Assembly: GCF_030505395.1 (NCBI RefSeq)
Contig: NZ_CP130044.1
Coordinates: 2,155,001 to 2,219,000, forward strand
Reading direction: 5' to 3'
DNA length: 64,000 bases
DNA from: Asticcacaulis sp. ZE23SCel15
GTDB taxonomy: Bacteria; Pseudomonadota; Alphaproteobacteria; Caulobacterales; Caulobacteraceae
In this document: in pieces, positions 3,529 to 24,868 of the stretch
How positions within the stretch are numbered: position 1 is the first letter of the stretch
Layout of the letters: every line of letters starts with the position of its first letter
Notes under the pieces: generated by a model
The model's input: the letters and a program-made list of their open reading frames with translations, nothing else
What the model was told of the DNA's origin: nothing
The model's database searches: none
Position numbers and translations under genes: made by a program

Positions 3529-3613
3529 GCCCCTGTGGTGGAATTGGTAGACGCGCCGGATTCAAAATCCGGTACCGAGAGGTGTGTCGGTTCGAGTCCG
3601 ACCGGGGGCACCA
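3529..3613 (+). tRNA. tRNA-Leu(CAA)
   Basis: The 85-nt sequence folds as a class II tRNA with an encoded CCA. The acceptor stem is GCCCCTG/CGGGGGC. The anticodon stem CCGGA/TCCGG encloses TTCAAAA, giving anticodon CAA. A short variable arm and a GGTTCGAGTCC T-arm follow. Its 3' end forms the left attachment site of the island (3591-3614). Confidence 0.96.
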
Positions 3614-3614
3614 G
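3591..3614 (+). other. attL: left attachment site in the 3' end of tRNA-Leu
   Basis: The T-arm and acceptor end of the tRNA are repeated at 24845-24868. The core CCGACCGGGGGCACCAG (3598-3614) is identical over 17 bp in both copies, and five more identical bases (TTCGA) lie beyond a 2-base mismatch. P4-type integrases typically use tRNA 3' ends, and such an integrase starts 171 bp away. Confidence 0.85.
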
Positions 3615-3785: not shown

Positions 3786-5063
3786 ATGGCACTCACAGAC
3801 GCACAAATTCGCGGCGCAAAACCCAAAAGCGACCGCGCCTACAAACTTTATGATGAATACGGCCTGTTTATACACATTTCGCTGACCGGGGCGAAACTCT
3901 GGCGGTTCCGCTTTCAGTATGCGGGTAAAGAGAAAACCCTCTCATTGGGCGCATACCCCGCCATTGGCGTGCGGGAGGCCAGGCATAACCGTGATGAGGC
4001 TCGCCGTCTGCTCGCCGTTGGCAAAGACCCTTCCGCTGAACGCAAACGACAAAAGATCGCAACGAGCCTCGCGGCTAGGAACACCTTTGCGGCTGTGGCC
4101 GAAGAGCTAATCGACAAAAACGAAAAAGAAGGGATGGCCGAGGTCACTCTCAGCAAGCAGCGCTGGATCGTTTCCTTGTTGGCCCCCACTATCGGTGATC
4201 GGCCCATTTCTGACCTTGAACCTCTGGAAGTGCTGAATGCCCTAAAGCAAATTGAAAAGGGCGCGCGATACGAGACCACACAACGCGCACGGTCTCTGGC
4301 CTCACGCATATTCCGATATGCGATCATCACAGGCCGCGCCCGCCACAATGCGGCGGCGGACCTCGGCATGGCGCTTATTTCCCACAAGCCCAAACACCAT
4401 GCCGCTATCATTGATCCCGACGCGCTGGGCGCGCTTCTGAGAGCCATTGAAGACTTTGAAGCCGGTACGTCGGTGATGTTCGGGCTGCGGCTCTTGCCTC
4501 ATGTCTTTGTCCGGCCAGGTGAGTTGCGTCATGCCGAGTGGAGGGAGTTTGATTTTGAAAAGGCGATCTGGCGCATTCCAGCAGGGCGCATGAAAATGCG
4601 CGATGAGCATGTCTTGCCCTTGTCCCGACAATCCAAAGCGATCCTTCAGGAAGCGCGGCAATATCACATCAATGGTCCATTGGTGTTCCCAAGTGTCCGG
4701 ACATGGACGAGGCCTATGTCAGAAAACACCCTGACTGCCGCGCTTCGGCGGATGGGGTATTCTGGTGACGAAATGACAGCGCACGGCTTCCGAAGTACTG
4801 CCAGCACCCTCCTAAACGAAAGTGGTCTGTGGTCGCCCGACACGATTGAGCGCGCCTTGGCTCATAAGGACTCCAATACCGTCAGGGGCATTTATCATCG
4901 GGGTACGCATTGGAAAGAACGGGTTGAAATGGCGCAGTGGTGGTCTGACCATCTGGATGAATTGCGCCTGAAGGCTGGCCTCGCACGTCGCGAAGCCTCA
5001 AAAGTTGCCTGTCAGGCAACGCCATTCTTGACGTCGAGGGCGTTGTCTGGTAGACAACAATGA
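3786..5063 (+). CDS. int: P4-type tyrosine integrase
   Basis: A 425-residue site-specific recombinase. The N-terminal DUF4102 arm-binding domain covers about residues 1-90 (LTDAQIRGAKP, then KLWRFRFQYAGKEKTLSLGAYP). A core-binding domain follows, then the catalytic domain with R243 (RPGEL), H333 and R336 (HGFR), H360 (ALAH) and the nucleophile Y370 (GIYHR). It catalyses integration and excision at tRNA-Leu. The last codons overlap the higB start by four bases (ATGA), and two palindromes lie inside its 3' end (5004-5058). No ribosome-binding site is clear; TACCCCAC precedes the ATG. Confidence 0.95.
   Translation: MALTDAQIRGAKPKSDRAYKLYDEYGLFIHISLTGAKLWRFRFQYAGKEKTLSLGAYPAIGVREARHNRDEARRLLAVGKDPSAERKRQKIATSLAARNTFAAVAEELIDKNEKEGMAEVTLSKQRWIVSLLAPTIGDRPISDLEPLEVLNALKQIEKGARYETTQRARSLASRIFRYAIITGRARHNAAADLGMALISHKPKHHAAIIDPDALGALLRAIEDFEAGTSVMFGLRLLPHVFVRPGELRHAEWREFDFEKAIWRIPAGRMKMRDEHVLPLSRQSKAILQEARQYHINGPLVFPSVRTWTRPMSENTLTAALRRMGYSGDEMTAHGFRSTASTLLNESGLWSPDTIERALAHKDSNTVRGIYHRGTHWKERVEMAQWWSDHLDELRLKAGLARREASKVACQATPFLTSRALSGRQQ
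5004..5058. promoter_or_regulatory. Tandem palindromes, likely HigA operators, inside the int 3' end
   Basis: GTTGCCT-GTC-AGGCAAC (5004-5020) and GTTGTCT-GGT-AGACAAC (5042-5058) share the pattern GTTGYCT-N3-AGRCAAC. Their centres are 38 bp apart, and the second ends one base before the higB ATG. Antitoxins of the HigA type repress their own operon through palindromes near the start, so these are strong operator candidates. They are fully contained in integrase coding sequence. Confidence 0.65.
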
Positions 5064-7382: not shown

Positions 7383-8294
7383 ATGCACATGTTACCTGAC
7401 GCCCTTGATCACCTGCCGGATACCAAACGCCGCGAGCTTGAGCATGTGGTGAAGGTGCTGTTCGACAGTTTTGAGGCCGCTACGCAGACCAAGCTGTCAG
7501 AGAAACGCAAGGGCGGTCGCATCCTAAAGATCATACTTTTCGGGTCATATGCGCGCGGTGACTGGGTTGAAGATCGCCTGTCTGGCTATCGCTCAGATTA
7601 TGACCTTCTGGTCGTCGTCAACAGCTATGAGTTCACCGATTTGCAGGAATACTGGAGTGCGGCGGATGATCGCTTCGTCCGAGAATACACACTCACACAT
7701 GACCTAAAAACGCCGGTCAGTTTTATCGTCCATAGCCTGGCTGACGTAAACGACCAACTTGCCAAAGGTCGCCCGTTTTTCTCGGACATCGTCAAAGATG
7801 GCGTTGTACTATATGAGGCAGCGGGACATCCGCTGGCCAAGCCAAAGGCGCTGACGCCAGAGGAACTGCAGGCCGAGGCCAAGGGTTATTATGACCAGTG
7901 GATGTCGAAGATGGCAGGCCTCGATCTCACATTTGAGGCAGCGTTGATCGCTGATGACAGAAAGCTCGCGTCTTTCCTTCTCCATCAAAAAACCGAGTCA
8001 TTGTACCACTGCGTATTACTCACGCTCTCCCTTTACAGCCCGAAATCTCACCGACTTTCATTTTTAAGATCGCAAGCCGAAGGACTGGATGAGCGGCTGA
8101 GAACTATTTGGCCGGATGATGATAAGTTTGCCAAAAGATGCTTTGCCAAACTGCAACGCGCTTACGTAGAGGCCCGGTATTCTGCGGATTATGACATCGG
8201 CTTCGACGAACTGATGTGGCTTAAAGAGCGAATTGAGCATCTAAGACTCACCATCCAAATGATCTGCGAAATGAAAATCGCAACTACGGCCTGA
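7383..8294 (+). CDS. MNT nucleotidyltransferase-HEPN fusion protein
   Basis: The 303-residue protein joins two domains usually encoded as a toxin-antitoxin pair. The N-terminal half is a minimal nucleotidyltransferase with ILFGSYARGDWVED, followed by GYRSDYDLLVVV. The GSYARGD and SDYDLLV metal-binding aspartates are both intact. The C-terminal half is a helical HEPN domain with the AYVEARYSADYDIGFDEL segment. The canonical RNase motif R-x4-6-H is not apparent there, so RNase activity is doubtful. Fused MNT-HEPN proteins of this length are a known annotation class, and unfused relatives act by AMPylating or nucleotidylating the HEPN partner. No partner gene is adjacent. Confidence 0.88.
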   Translation: MHMLPDALDHLPDTKRRELEHVVKVLFDSFEAATQTKLSEKRKGGRILKIILFGSYARGDWVEDRLSGYRSDYDLLVVVNSYEFTDLQEYWSAADDRFVREYTLTHDLKTPVSFIVHSLADVNDQLAKGRPFFSDIVKDGVVLYEAAGHPLAKPKALTPEELQAEAKGYYDQWMSKMAGLDLTFEAALIADDRKLASFLLHQKTESLYHCVLLTLSLYSPKSHRLSFLRSQAEGLDERLRTIWPDDDKFAKRCFAKLQRAYVEARYSADYDIGFDELMWLKERIEHLRLTIQMICEMKIATTA

Positions 8295-8632
8295 ACCGGA
8301 GCCTTTTCCTTCTGATGGCCCGGCAAGGCCGAGTTCGAGCAGTTGCGTGTGGTGTGGCAAACCGTCTTTCTGGTCATTCTGCTGTCAGTCAATGCTGGTT
8401 CGATCATGAGGATAAGATACAGCCGAAACGATTTTAGTTTACCTTGGGTTGTGTGTGGGGTATGTGTTTCCTCAGCAGATTGATCTGCTTTACCATCAAC
8501 CCACTATCCACAAAGCTATAACTGCTTAGGCTGCCTCTTCCCCTTGGGGTGGCTTAAGCGTTTTTTTGGGCTCGGTATGGTGACGGATAAATTCAACCTC
8601 AAAGACTGCCACCCCCAACGATAAGGCTACGC
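8295..8632. other. Intergenic stretch with a hairpin
   Basis: The 338 bp between the MNT-HEPN gene and the convergent small membrane gene hold no supported ORF. A CCCCTTGGGG-centred hairpin near 8530-8555, followed by GCGTTTTTTT, could terminate rightward transcription. A short palindrome CAGATTGATCTG lies near 8478. Confidence 0.35.
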
Positions 8633-8983
8633 CTATGCCCCTAACAGGCCGAGCGTCGTTAGGTAGGCGTAATAGCCAACAGACAATGACAGATGGGCGG
8701 CTAAGTGTGTCAGGGCACCCGCCAGATGGCATGACGTGATCATAATCGTCCATAGCCTGCGCGATCGGTAAGAGATGGCAAACAGGACGAGGGTCACAAA
8801 AGCATCGAGCAGCGCTGTATAAATGCCCGGATCGTAGCCGCGTTGAAGGTGAGGGGTAATCAGCCATGCGCAAATCACCAGCACGGCGGCCGACCTTTCG
8901 GCCCAACCGCCCCGCCAGATCGCCAGCCCTCCGCATGTGAAGAGTAGCGTATATCCTAAAGCTATCCAGAGAGTTTGCAGCAT
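8633..8983 (-). CDS. Small polytopic membrane protein of the LuxR module
   Basis: A 116-residue protein with about four hydrophobic helices. One distinctive segment is RRLWTIMITSCHLAGALTHLA. Its ATG overlaps the stop codon of the upstream 119-residue gene at 8983, so the two are translationally coupled. Function is unknown. I have the impression of similar small proteins beside LuxR-type regulators in other alphaproteobacteria, but this is memory and was not searched. Confidence 0.75.
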   Translation of the reverse strand: MLQTLWIALGYTLLFTCGGLAIWRGGWAERSAAVLVICAWLITPHLQRGYDPGIYTALLDAFVTLVLFAISYRSRRLWTIMITSCHLAGALTHLAAHLSLSVGYYAYLTTLGLLGA

Positions 8984-9342
8984 CAGGTCGTAATGGCGAG
9001 CCCCGTTGTTATACCTGCACCACCACCCCCGGTTTTTTTGTCGTTTTCAGGTTTGTCGAAATCATTGCCGGTAAGGACGACGTTTTTAGCCCAGGTGGTA
9101 TGAATCTTTTTGAGTTCTTTGTGCGCTTCGAGGAAGCCGCCACGGACCAGTGCCAGATTGCGGGTATTATCAACGATGCACATCAGCGCATCCTGACCAA
9201 ACATGGCTGACATGCCACTGGTGGCCCTTAGCCGTGCTAAGGTGGACAGTAGCTCACCGGCTTCGGATAAGGCCAGGTCAATGGCGTTTTCTGTTTGGTG
9301 CATTTTTTCGGCACCGGCTAAAACGACTTCTGATTTTTTCAA
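8983..9342 (-). CDS. Unknown 119-aa helical protein of the LuxR module
   Basis: An unrecognised soluble protein. Residues 1-85 are predicted helical and amphipathic (AEKMHQTENAIDLALSEAG, then ALVRGGFLEAHKELKKIHTTW). The tail is lysine- and glycine-rich (KKTGGGGAGITTGLAITT). It has no signal peptide and no membrane helix. It sits 59 bp after the LuxR-type gene and overlaps the start of the small membrane gene, so the three probably form one operon. Confidence 0.75.
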   Translation of the reverse strand: MKKSEVVLAGAEKMHQTENAIDLALSEAGELLSTLARLRATSGMSAMFGQDALMCIVDNTRNLALVRGGFLEAHKELKKIHTTWAKNVVLTGNDFDKPENDKKTGGGGAGITTGLAITT

Positions 9343-9401
9343 AGGTATTCTCCTTTTGTGGGTGGCTTTTGGGCCGGGCTGATGGCCACCCGGAGGTTTA
9401 A

Positions 9402-10055
9402 TTACCCGGTTTGGCCGCTGAAATTAGTAATGGCCTGAAACACCCCCATGAGGACAACCACCACACTGCCTGCGGCGATGACGATCATGAGCGTTACCGC
9501 AAGGGTAAGTCCGGCCCATTGTATGAGGCTATACTTCTGTAACCGATCGATTAGGGCTAGGTACTGGTCAAATCGAGAAGAGCGAACATCAGCATTGTTA
9601 CCGCCGCTGTTTCCCCTTCCTCGTCCCTCACTTTGAATATCGTGTTCAAAGTTGGGAGAATATCGTGCACTTTCTCGGTGGCTGTTAAGTTCAACATCGC
9701 TTCCGCCAGATCGCTCTTTAGGATCGTCAAACTGGGTTCGTTTTTGGTTTGGATTGTATTGCTCATGCCCCAAGGATGATGTCTCAAACCCTTGCCGGGC
9801 AATCCCTTCTGAAGCGCGATAACCTTCAGGGGGGATCAGCGGATGCGCCTCATGGTGCGCCAGCATAAGGGCGGCCTGCACCGAAGATTGAGCCCCTAAC
9901 AGCTTACGGGCCTTCTCTTTGTGGGTCTTTACGGTGTGCTCAGAAATTTCAAGTTTGCGGGCAATTTCCTTGGCCAATAAATGCTGAGATGTCAGCCGCA
10001 ACACTTCCTTTTGCCGGGGGGTTAGCACGTCAAATTTTGATAAGGACTCGCCCAA
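9402..10055 (-). CDS. LuxR-type HTH regulator with a C-terminal membrane anchor
   Basis: The 217 residues have unusual order. The LuxR/GerE DNA-binding domain is at the N-terminus (LTPRQKEVLRLTSQ, LLAKEIARKLEISEHTVKTHKEKARKLLG, about residues 11-60). A long, charged, low-complexity linker follows (about 75-165). One membrane helix lies near the C-terminus (LTLAVTLMIVIAAGSVVVVLMG, about 183-204). There is no receiver or autoinducer domain. The architecture implies a DNA-binding domain tethered to the inner membrane and released or sensing there. It leads an operon with the 119-aa and 116-aa genes. Confidence 0.88.
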   Translation of the reverse strand: MGESLSKFDVLTPRQKEVLRLTSQHLLAKEIARKLEISEHTVKTHKEKARKLLGAQSSVQAALMLAHHEAHPLIPPEGYRASEGIARQGFETSSLGHEQYNPNQKRTQFDDPKERSGGSDVELNSHRESARYSPNFEHDIQSEGRGRGNSGGNNADVRSSRFDQYLALIDRLQKYSLIQWAGLTLAVTLMIVIAAGSVVVVLMGVFQAITNFSGQTG

Positions 10056-15926: not shown

Positions 15927-16939
15927 TCATCCGGTCTCAAGTTTAAGTCTTGACGACAGACCGCCCGATCCATCCATGCGATGCTCGGCCTCTTTGACCA
16001 GCCATTTGCGCGCATCTATTTCGGCCTTGAAGCCGGTCAGGTAATGGGCCGCTCTGGCGTGATATCGGGGCGACCTAAGGCCAAAGAGATTGAGGTCGTG
16101 GCCTTGGAGCGCGCGACGCGCTTATGTTCGGCCTCTGCCGCCTGCCTTGCGCTGGTCTCGCTGGCATAGGTTTTTTTTGAGGCGCTTGGGCTTACCGTCG
16201 CCGTTGCCGCCACCGGGCACCACGGTCTTTTTCTCACCCTTAGCGGCGTCGTGATAGCTGGCCTCCACGCCGTTATAGGTGTCGCGTTCCGCCCGCGAAT
16301 ATTCCGGTGAGCCTGTGGTTTGATCGCAGGAAATCGTCTCGGTCGGGATGGCTTTGCCCCTGCGGTCTGGCCCTTGCTGATGGGTGCAAAGATCAGCTTG
16401 CCCATGGCGACGCCACCAAAGCGCCTGCCCAGTTCATTGAGGCGGGCGGCGTCAGAGCGCGCGCCGGTGCCAAGCGCCGGGAAAGGTTTGCCGGTCAGGT
16501 CGGAATTGATATGGGACGTCAGGCCATTATCGGCGGCTATGGCCCCGATGATATCGCCCACCGTGGCATCTACGAAAGACCGTTCACGGCGGATCGCAAA
16601 GCCATCCGTCAAATCGGCCGATCTGGCGCGGATGGTGATGGTGTCGGGATTGCCGCGCCAACTGGCTTCGTCGACCTTGAACGTGCCTTTGCTAATCAGG
16701 CCCAAGGGCAGATTGGCACCCTGTTTCCAGCCCAGTTCGACCGTGAGGGTGCGACCAGATGAGGGGATTTCAAGCTGACCGTCTTTGTCATCGAGTACGA
16801 TTTCCAATTCATCGGCCTCTTCGCCGCGCTTTTCGGTCAAGGATAGGCCGATCAGGCGCGGGCGCATGATGTCGGTCAGGTCGCGGCCATTAAGGGTGAC
16901 CCGCCATGTGGCAATAGGATGGCGCTTTTCATTAGCCAT
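15927..16939 (-). pseudogene. Phage late control protein gpD (P2-type tail), frameshifted
   Basis: The N-terminal two thirds read as gpD of P2-like phages, a baseplate/tail-tip protein (WRVTLNGRDLTD, then DELEIVLDDKDGQLEIP, SFVDATVGDIIGAIA). After about residue 190, near position 16360, the frame slips and the conserved sequence (PTETISCDQTTGSPEY onward) continues one frame over. It slips back at an A8 tract near 16171-16178, resuming at KKTYASETSARQA, and slips a third time near 16043. The conserved C-terminus (FKAEIDARKWLVKEAEHRMD) then runs to the stop at 15929-15927. Three indels make a functional product unlikely. It overlaps gpU by one base, the normal P2 order. Confidence 0.85.
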
Positions 16940-17372
16940 TACTGCGCCGCCTCGGTCGCGGTCTCAGACTGGGCATCATCGCCGCGCTTAAGTTCGATGG
17001 TAAAGTCGGCCTTGCGGTGCATCCCATCGACAAAGAAATTTGAGCGCTTTTCCTCAAGGCTTAAGATGATCCATTCGCCCAGGACTTCGCCAGTGCCGGA
17101 CACCATAGTGTAGGCATCGCCGGTGTCGGCCAATTCGCGGACCTGCTCAATCGCACCATAGTTCCCGATGACGCCGCCAAAGAGCGCGCCGGAAAGCGTG
17201 ATGGTTTCTTCGCCGGGCCCAACATATTGCAGGGCCGGACGCGCCATAAAGCGGTCGGTCTGGGCATGACGCCACGACATACGGCGCTGCAGTTCCTGAT
17301 AGGGCAGGGAAGTCTTATCCGGGCGTAGGATCCCTGTGATTACCGACTTGGCAAATACAAACAGGAGATCAT
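16939..17372 (-). pseudogene. Phage tail protein gpU (P2-type), 5' end damaged
   Basis: The frame has clear gpU features: LFVFA, then LPYQELQRRMSWRHAQTDRF, GPGEETITLSGALFGG, and the C-terminal FFVDGMHRKADFTIELKR. The expected start ATG at 17372 is in another frame, and a one-base slip just after it would restore the LFVFA segment. About ten extra residues also separate LFVFA from the conserved TLPYQ-like motif. In the open frame the next upstream ATG lies inside the histidine kinase gene. I judge it a remnant. It directly precedes gpD, and no other phage genes are nearby. Confidence 0.75.
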
Positions 17373-17407
17373 TTGATTTGCGGCGGAACGCTCCGCTAGT
17401 CTTCCCG

Positions 17408-18625
17408 CTACACATCCGCGCGCTTAAGTGAAAGTTCAAAGCAGGCACCACTCAATCGGCTGAGGTCGCCGGGATCAGGGGCCTTGAGGACAAGTTCATT
17501 GCCATGGCCCTGCATAATCTGGCGGGCCAGACTGAGGCCGACCCCGGTGCCGGTGGCCTTGGTGGTGTAAAAGGGCATAAATATTTGATCGATCTCGCTC
17601 GCAGGAATACCATTGCCCGAATCCTCGATACGCAAACGGACCGTGTCGTCAACCTCTCTCACCGTGAGGCGGACAGTCGGGTCCGTTCCCTCCAGCGCGG
17701 CCTGAGCGGCGTTATTGAGCAGATTTCCGGCACAAAGCCACATTTGATCCTCGTCCATAAGGACGGATGTTGCCGGTGGTTCAACATAGTTTAAAACAAC
17801 ACCTTTGTCAGCCCATTGTCCCATAAAGCTTTCGCGCAGGACATCCAGCCATTCTGCTAGATTGGCGGTGCGCACCACGGGTCGCGGCAGGTATGTCAAC
17901 GCTCTGTAGGCATTAATAAAATTGTGCAAGCCCTCGATGCGCGCCACGACGCGCTCTATGGCCCTGATGGCTGCTGACCGGGACGCCTCTGTGTCATCCC
18001 CCAGCAGGTCGAGGGCACTTTTGCTCATGGATGCCACAGGGGTCAGGGCATTCATCAGTTCATGATTCAGCACCCGCAAAAGATCACGAAGTGCAGTGGC
18101 TTCGGCCGCGCGCACATCGGCAGATATATCGGTGAGAACCGCCAGAAACGACGTACGATCAGCCTCAGTCATTTCGGCACGGTGCACGGCATAGGTTGCC
18201 CCTTTCCAGCGAAGCTGATGCCCAATGCCTGCCAGGTTTTCGTTCTTGTCCAGTAGCGCCTTACGACTGGCGACGGGTAAGGTGTAGGCCACATCGAACA
18301 GTCGGCGCGCCGCACGGTTGACCGCGATGACCTGCTCACCGGTTTGCAACAGCAATGGTGAGGGTGTCTCATCAAGCAGCAACTGCAACCTGCGGCGACT
18401 TAGTTCCGAAGTAAAGGTCGTGCCGGGTGCTAACCGCCCTATACGCTCCCGAACCTGGCGCAGGGATATGGTGTTCAGACTGAGTGCCACCAGCGCCAAA
18501 GCGGCAAGTCCGCACAACAGGGCGCTGGCGAACAGACTGCGAGTCAGAGCCATCCAGCCTAAAGCCCCGAAGGCAAAGATGCCGACCTGAGCCCCAAGCA
18601 CAATAATGAGACGTCTATAGTCCAT
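17408..18625 (-). CDS. Sensor histidine kinase (NtrY-like)
   Basis: A 405-residue kinase. Two N-terminal membrane helices (about 7-25 and 30-50) are followed by a PAS-like region with LLDETPSPLLLQTGEQVIAVNRAA. The dimerisation domain has the phospho-accepting H in RVLNHELMNALTP. The ATPase domain has an N box (LLNNAAQAAL), G1 (DSGNGIP), an F-box region (IFMPFYTTK) and G2 (GTGVGLSLARQI). It should phosphorylate the response regulator encoded 11 bp into its start (overlap 18615-18625). The pair is divergent from an ABC exporter, which is the likely target. Confidence 0.92.
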   Translation of the reverse strand: MDYRRLIIVLGAQVGIFAFGALGWMALTRSLFASALLCGLAALALVALSLNTISLRQVRERIGRLAPGTTFTSELSRRRLQLLLDETPSPLLLQTGEQVIAVNRAARRLFDVAYTLPVASRKALLDKNENLAGIGHQLRWKGATYAVHRAEMTEADRTSFLAVLTDISADVRAAEATALRDLLRVLNHELMNALTPVASMSKSALDLLGDDTEASRSAAIRAIERVVARIEGLHNFINAYRALTYLPRPVVRTANLAEWLDVLRESFMGQWADKGVVLNYVEPPATSVLMDEDQMWLCAGNLLNNAAQAALEGTDPTVRLTVREVDDTVRLRIEDSGNGIPASEIDQIFMPFYTTKATGTGVGLSLARQIMQGHGNELVLKAPDPGDLSRLSGACFELSLKRADV

Positions 18626-24844: not shown

Positions 24845-24868
24845 TTCGAAGCCGACCGGGGGCACCAG
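24845..24868 (+). other. attR: duplicated tRNA-Leu 3' end
   Basis: TTCGA, two mismatched bases, then CCGACCGGGGGCACCAG (24852-24868), repeating the tRNA-Leu T-arm/acceptor end at 3591-3614. No tRNA body precedes it, so it is a displaced copy created by integration and not a gene. Confidence 0.85.

Follow-up and report, generated by a model that had tools for sequence, protein, structure and literature searches.

ToxR-type heads and periplasmic domains are features of the known transmembrane transcription regulators. These regulators and their partner proteins, including ToxR, TcpP/TcpH and VtrA, are surveyed in PMC10269533, the available text of which recognizes them in sequence by a DNA-binding domain and at least one predicted transmembrane (TM) helix. 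In the stretch of Asticcacaulis sp. ZE23SCel15 DNA analysed here (64,000 nucleotides, hereafter the window), the product of gene 1 (g1) carries both, with a DNA-binding domain of the GerE type, and g1 is best read as a transmembrane transcription regulator whose partners are encoded alongside it and which would work like the regulator-partner pairs of that survey. As in the ToxR/ToxS and TcpP/TcpH type, a membrane partner is co-encoded, since g3 stands beside g1 and g2 in 27 of 32 loci. In contrast to ToxR, no periplasmic sensor domain follows the TM helix of g1, where a median of 16 residues is found in the family and at most 15 in the window protein, counted beyond residue 203 of 217. The module also differs from ToxR, TcpP and VtrA in its GerE/LuxR head, in its two partners of unknown families and in the apparent natural exchange of its heads.

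The GerE helix-turn-helix (HTH) is shared with LuxR-type quorum receptors and GerE response regulators. However, the quorum receptors carry an autoinducer-binding domain before the HTH, which Pfam and NCBIfam searches did not find in g1, whose HTH is N-terminal and which has a TM helix, while response regulators carry a receiver domain and g1 gave no Response_reg match. Since these defining domains are absent, g1 is neither a LuxR quorum-sensing receptor nor a response regulator, and the family searches agree with the initial annotation, which had seen no receiver, ligand or protease domain. TraM, the anti-activator of TraR, has a two-helix fold. Like g2, it is a small protein that neighbours a LuxR-type regulator or acts on one, and CinS, the anti-repressor of PraR described in the available text of PMC4149787, has the corresponding relation to an XRE-type regulator; both likenesses are by analogy only, and g2 differs in having no sequence match to Pfam families or solved structures. 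The XRE repressors RtrA, RtrB, CdxA and TgrL of Caulobacter and phiCbK, as presented in the available text of PMC10688885, are relatives of the XRE proteins often encoded next to the module, although the module as such belongs to another kind of system. The same text considers that undiscovered anti-repressors for the RtrA/CdxA group may exist in C. crescentus, and its main text mentions neither LuxR nor Asticcacaulis. Among open-licence papers, none was recognized as describing the three-gene set. It seems to be undescribed as far as our searches go, and a transmembrane regulator with co-encoded partners is an already known kind.

Anatomy of the three genes and of the truncated g3

The positions of the three genes and of the surrounding element are given in Table 1. 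The g1 gene starts with TTG, and its product consists of an N-terminal GerE HTH, a linker without a recognized domain and a single TM helix near the C-terminus. The N-terminal DNA-binding domain and the single membrane helix had both been proposed in the initial annotation, and the Pfam match and the hydropathy profile in Table 1 confirm them; by hydropathy, 66 of 67 distinct g1 homologues have exactly one TM helix and none of 65 distinct g2 proteins has any. In the g1 family, K+R residues number 2.05 per 15 residues before the TM helix and 0.73 after it, and thus an HTH on the inside is favoured. The linker is the least conserved part of g1 (mean top-residue frequency 0.33), and it is short in sphingomonads, whose g1 proteins total 150-190 aa in a module that is otherwise alike. 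The overlaps proposed for the downstream genes stood in part: g2 and g3 have one base in common, but g1 and g2 are separated by 59 bp.

Table 1. Features of the three-gene module and its surroundings in the window
Feature	Position	Strand	Evidence
Left 17-base repeat, tRNA-Leu end, island boundary	3598..3614	+	Repeat search
Tyrosine integrase of the island	3786..5063	+	Pfam Phage_integrase and arm domain
g3 C-terminus remnant, out of frame (fifth helix and tail)	8526..8640	-	DNA alignment; other-frame translation
g3 (gene 3), 116-aa membrane protein, C-terminally truncated	8633..8983	-	ORF; homologue model; no Pfam family
g2 (gene 2), 119-aa predicted helical hairpin, disordered tail	8983..9342	-	ORF; structure model; no Pfam family
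g1 (gene 1), 217-aa LuxR/GerE-type regulator	9402..10055	-	ORF; Pfam; hydropathy; homologues
g1 TM helix, residues 185-203, then short tail	9447..9503	-	Hydropathy; family K+R bias
g1 HTH (output head), residues 9-64	9864..10031	-	Pfam PF00196, E=1.1e-14
Right 17-base repeat, opposite island boundary	24852..24868	+	Repeat search

The g2 product had been called helical from its sequence; the ORF is real, and its model is an all-helical hairpin with helices at residues 3-42 and 50-87 (mean pLDDT 81) and a disordered tail. E18 and H74 are invariant in both g2 alignments, and by simple register they would lie opposite each other across the hairpin.

The g3 product had been read as a 116-aa protein of four helices. 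Instead, the homologue model and the alignments indicate a truncated form of a five-helix protein. The model of the close homologue at L126 has five helices in 144 aa (mean pLDDT 92.7), and homologues are at least 137 aa long wherever the start was not trimmed, compared with 116 aa in the window; in the protein alignment, they extend beyond the end of the window g3. When the DNA was aligned with that of L071 and L072, the window was one base short near 8638, with a stop directly after, and the remaining homologous C-terminus could be aligned in another frame down to 8526. The four helices are thus what a one-base frameshift leaves of five. Since the frame beyond the lesion is well kept, the lesion is either recent or a sequencing error; the latter may be the case, and given the frameshift the window copy of the module may be damaged. 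By plain hydropathy, most g3 proteins show just one to three helices, so that the number five depends on the model. R24, G25, E29, R30, D60 and W78 are invariant in 31 g3 sequences, and H93 is present in 26 of the 31. K+R residues abound in loops 1 and 3 and at the C-terminus but are few in loops 2 and 4. This pattern favours an N-out, C-in arrangement, which would place the WRGGxxER and RxW motifs on the cytoplasmic side.

Neither protein could be placed in a known family. No Pfam family was found for g2 (window copy and 31 relatives) or for g3 (window copy and 38 members), apart from a weak Holin_9 match in one of the 38 g3 members (E=0.036), and PADLOC models matched neither. Among solved structures, sequence search gave no relative of either (best E 0.88), and Foldseek gave nothing at an E of 0.001 or better. 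VIA-align returned generic helical hairpins and bundles for g2 (best Z 9.9, 2.4 Å over 86 residues) and for g3 (best Z 11.2, 2.9 Å over 136 residues), with scores in the range that its notes call common for helical proteins. A known fold was dropped for both, since Foldseek had no match and the VIA-align likeness is only generic. TraM was not among the VIA-align matches listed for g2, a listing that does not exclude TraM.

Distribution, genomic setting and neighbouring regulators

The initial annotation had proposed to ask whether the three genes are rarely neighbours elsewhere, in Caulobacterales and Sphingomonadales. We recruited 32 loci by the g3 pattern alone from named genomes of Asticcacaulis, Caulobacter, Phenylobacterium, Sphingomonas and relatives, and all three genes adjoin, as separate ORFs in order, at 27 of them (with a short g2 at L154); three-gene loci were found in both orders. 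Among the same 32, g1 and g2 form a single ORF followed by g3 at L148, g1 and g3 alone occur at L129 and L131, g2 and g3 occur without g1 at L141, and L130 has two g3 copies. Rarity as neighbours, which would have refuted the initial annotation, was thus not observed, and by this co-occurrence the three-gene set is a real conserved unit, beyond chance. A further 40 neighbourhoods were hand-picked from search matches and are biased to complete modules, so that the 32 loci give the fairer count; the Asticcacaulis loci are partly in both sets. The single ORF of L148 (4869-5948, Sphingomonas faeni ERG1.4) has a TM helix between its g1 and g2 parts; if the fusion is real, g2 would be placed across the membrane from the HTH, outside the cytoplasm, or would be separately translated.

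When 100 relatives were searched gene by gene, 47 genomes gave a g2 match and 38 a g3 match, the latter being 22 of 25 Asticcacaulis genomes (the window's own included), 16 of 35 from the rest of the family and 0 of 40 from the rest of the order. A class-wide sample gave matches in 8 of 385 genomes, one of them weak (E=5e-4, G183) and outside the usual families. In a phylum-wide sample, 23 of 398 genomes had matches, all in the window's own family and in family f17, inferred from named loci to be Sphingomonadaceae, except two in f27 that are weak and lie inside long ORFs. By these matches, the set occurs in Caulobacteraceae and Sphingomonadaceae and is all but missing from the rest of the genomes sampled.

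The module is not always complete. Of 30 Asticcacaulis modules in which g1 and g3 are present, 5 lack g2, which is therefore dispensable in some cases, and g1 is missing at L106, L107, L110, L130 and L141. The genome of the window itself has two further g3 copies on contig C1 (2772458-2772889 and 1063690-1064127), one with g1 but without g2 and one for which neither g1 nor g2 was found in its 3.4-kb locus. Occurrence is patchy, with several module copies per genome, on an island in the window and on plasmids elsewhere, while chromosomal settings recur in Phenylobacterium and Caulobacter. On plasmid pASEM-1 of A. excentricus M6, the annotation reads helix-turn-helix regulator, hypothetical, hypothetical, helix-turn-helix regulator. 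Plasmid spread as a general habit was rejected, as only two Asticcacaulis plasmids bear the module.

In the window, the module lies between two 17-base repeats, which occur nowhere else in the genome. Because the stretch between them also contains the integrase and cargo, namely a HigB-like toxin gene with an HTH partner, an excisionase-like gene and a nucleotidyltransferase-HEPN protein, the window copy is probably carried by an integrated element some 21 kb long (3598-24868) at tRNA-Leu. The element also carries a P2 GpU-type tail gene (16939-17451), transporter genes and two-component genes. The protein at 7383-8294 combines a nucleotidyltransferase domain with a weak HEPN match and is reminiscent of an MntA/HepT-type pair fused into one. 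It also gave a weak match to PDC-S09, a PADLOC candidate, and has no relative in the other module neighbourhoods read. The window integrase likewise has no relative there, so that islands as a rule were rejected and the island is particular to the window copy.

When L106 is counted with Asticcacaulis, a small XRE gene is the immediate next gene at 15 of 30 loci of that genus. The figure is 4 of 11 for the other Caulobacteraceae loci from the relatives' sample and 7 of 14 for named Caulobacteraceae loci outside Asticcacaulis, while none of the 9 named sphingomonad loci has such a neighbour. The XRE gene lies upstream or downstream of the module, on either strand, and none adjoins the window module. 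With 155 XRE matches in 25 Asticcacaulis genomes (about six per genome) and an assumed number of about 4,000 genes per genome, chance would give such adjacency at some 0.1 of 30 loci, which are not independent, some being orthologous. The XRE protein of L071 matches phiCbK gp216 (52.8% over residues 8-79), which is tgrL according to the available text of PMC10688885. At 8 of 12 sphingomonad loci, the gene after g3 is winged-helix-like and has the same orientation; the profile was built from six of the eight and found the other two (L114 and L115). A Pfam scan of three of these proteins gave one HTH_27 match at E=0.0005, below the curated cut-off, and nothing for the other two. At L106 and L110, g1 is absent, and g2 and g3 are flanked by two thioesterase-type genes on one side and an S24-peptidase regulator-like gene on the other; the same row is found in two genera (L106 7506-10058 and L110 7143-10025). 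As the neighbours are of XRE, winged-helix and S24 type, g2-g3 accompanies transcription regulators of several kinds.

Other neighbours vary by copy (RND-pump-like genes, a thiolase-like gene, an RTX protein, conjugation genes), and since they differ, gene context points to no common stress. A giant protein is encoded upstream near the module at L081, L082, L092 and L093, the L093 member having 1668 aa with RTX calcium-binding repeats. Conjugation genes lie near the pASEM-1 copy and, to judge from the sequences themselves and not from a family search, also near L084/L085 and L141; as they are no general companion of the module, a link to transfer genes as a rule was rejected. We also listed inverted repeats upstream of g1 for each locus, and no common operator motif was seen among them.

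Heads and tails of g1

The initial annotation had suggested a dedicated membrane partner for the tethered regulator, and the tail of g1 tracks g3 in divergence and in trees, as such a partner would. When we compared pairwise distances among 20 non-redundant Asticcacaulis modules, the TM tail correlated with g3 at r=0.68 (0 of 500 shuffles) and the HTH with g3 at r=0.16 (8 of 500 shuffles). Leaving out pairs with g3 identity of at least 50% lowered these values to 0.41 and 0.10, respectively. When all 43 non-redundant modules of all genera are taken together, 12 of the 55 complete loci having been removed because their g3 was more than 75% alike, correlation extends to every pair of parts (r 0.56 to 0.73), and the contrast between tail and HTH is therefore visible only within Asticcacaulis.

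Individual loci illustrate this contrast. L087 resembles L091 in the HTH (91%) and linker (61%) but less in the tail (33%), g2 (39%) and g3 (44%), whereas it resembles L086 less in the HTH (62%) than in the tail (80%), g2 (67%) and g3 (67%); the similarity switches at about residues 150-165, immediately before the TM helix. The window and L071 share 40% in the HTH, 58% in the tail, 54% in g2 and 67% in g3. By contrast, the HTHs of L071 and L097 are 69% alike, against 16% for their tails and 28% for g3. The L087 and window/L071 cases explain why the tail and the HTH correlate so differently with g3.

The conflicting head and tail groups were also upheld by trees from two programs, which included the 23 Asticcacaulis loci with all three genes and retained close duplicates. 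There were two exceptions: the group of the window and L073 is missing from the HTH and linker tree, and that of the window, L071 and L072 from the IQ-TREE tree of the tail only. The simplest reading of the head and tail conflict would be recombination between modules, with the joint in the linker. The TM tail of g1 thus appears to travel with g2 and g3, and L087 is to all appearance one clean chimera. This fits a putative exchangeable membrane input unit that is plugged onto different DNA-binding heads.

A proposed membrane-based switch and its alternatives

We suggest that the three genes may form a membrane-based transcription switch with a tethered g1 head, g3 as input, g2 as coupler and an exchangeable HTH, a reading that we regard as evenly poised. 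The g1 protein would be a transmembrane regulator with its LuxR-type head in the cytoplasm and its short C-terminal TM helix at the inner membrane, against which the five-helix g3 protein would pack to receive the input, its conserved WRGGxxER and RxW loops probably being cytoplasmic. The g2 hairpin, also cytoplasmic, would couple g3 to g1, for example through retention or release of the head, so that the TM tail, g2 and g3 would make up one input unit and the HTH the exchangeable output. The targets would probably include the module itself and the adjacent small regulator, XRE in Caulobacteraceae and winged-helix in sphingomonads. The computed support comprises the linkage, the single TM helix, the model folds, the tail-g3 association, the head exchange and the regulator adjacency, and from these we infer the membrane insertion, the topology, the contacts, the direction of control and the targets. 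Against the switch stand the modules that are missing g2 or g1, the drop in tail-g3 correlation without close g3 pairs together with the correlation of all parts across genera, and the L148 fusion, which, if real, puts g2 opposite the HTH across the membrane.

A bolder version, which we consider improbable, is that the TM tail, g2 and g3 are a plug-in sensor moved between heads, and that g2 is the missing anti-repressor, freed by g3 to bind XRE. Here g2 would be held by g3 in one state and released in the other to bind the neighbouring XRE repressor, and the heads would differ, LuxR in the window and none but a neighbouring S24-peptidase-type regulator at L106 and L110.

If the tether works by release, with anti-sigma-like or TcpP/TcpH-like logic, g1 would be silent at the membrane until proteolysis of the linker frees it, and g2 and g3 would only hold or protect it. 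The long and poorly conserved linker agrees with this, and partners that govern the proteolysis of a membrane regulator are known for TcpH/TcpP in the available text on that pair, but the module contains no protease gene and sphingomonads keep the same module with short linkers, so we consider release unlikely. It is still less probable that the set is a toxin-antitoxin-like or addiction unit, in which g3 would be a membrane toxin, g2 or the regulator its antidote, and g1 and XRE would control expression. Its small genes, the several patchy copies per genome, on an island and plasmids, the frequently adjoining XRE gene and the frameshift in the window g3 would all suit such a unit; however, there are modules with g3 and without g2, g3 is tracked by the TM tail of g1 and not by a soluble antidote, the chromosomal settings recur in Phenylobacterium and Caulobacter, and PADLOC recognizes neither protein.

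A different question is whether the window copy, whatever the family does, is a decaying, functionless remnant on a mobile element. This is a real possibility, although we lean against it: the loss of one base and with it the fifth helix of g3, the position between repeats with an integrase, and the lack of an adjoining XRE gene speak for decay, whereas g1 and g2 are intact and align with their relatives over the full length, and the well-kept frame past the lesion points to a recent event or a sequencing error. A phage lysis-type function with a holin-like g3 is hardly credible. The single weak Holin_9 match and the occurrence of the neighbouring XRE family in phages too are outweighed by the absence of any g2 match in 50,697 phage records and of any g3 relative in viral contigs, by which a phage origin of the module is also disfavoured, and no lysis gene was seen among the neighbours read, not all of which were family-searched.

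Returning to the membrane-based switch, the head exchange and the link to XRE regulators carry more weight than the initial observation. The g2 and g3 proteins represent two families that Pfam lacks, and both are tied to a LuxR-type regulator across two orders, with the developmental model genus Caulobacter in one of them. The head exchange indicates which part probably serves as input and which as output, and chimeras could thus be built on a joint already used by evolution. Since the module often lies beside an XRE gene of the RtrA/CdxA/TgrL group, as that group is defined in the available text of PMC10688885, it offers a direct test of how those repressors are controlled, a question raised in that text. 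If the anti-repressor reading were true, g2 would be the missing anti-repressor of the RtrA/CdxA group, which controls adhesion and gene-transfer-agent production in Caulobacter.
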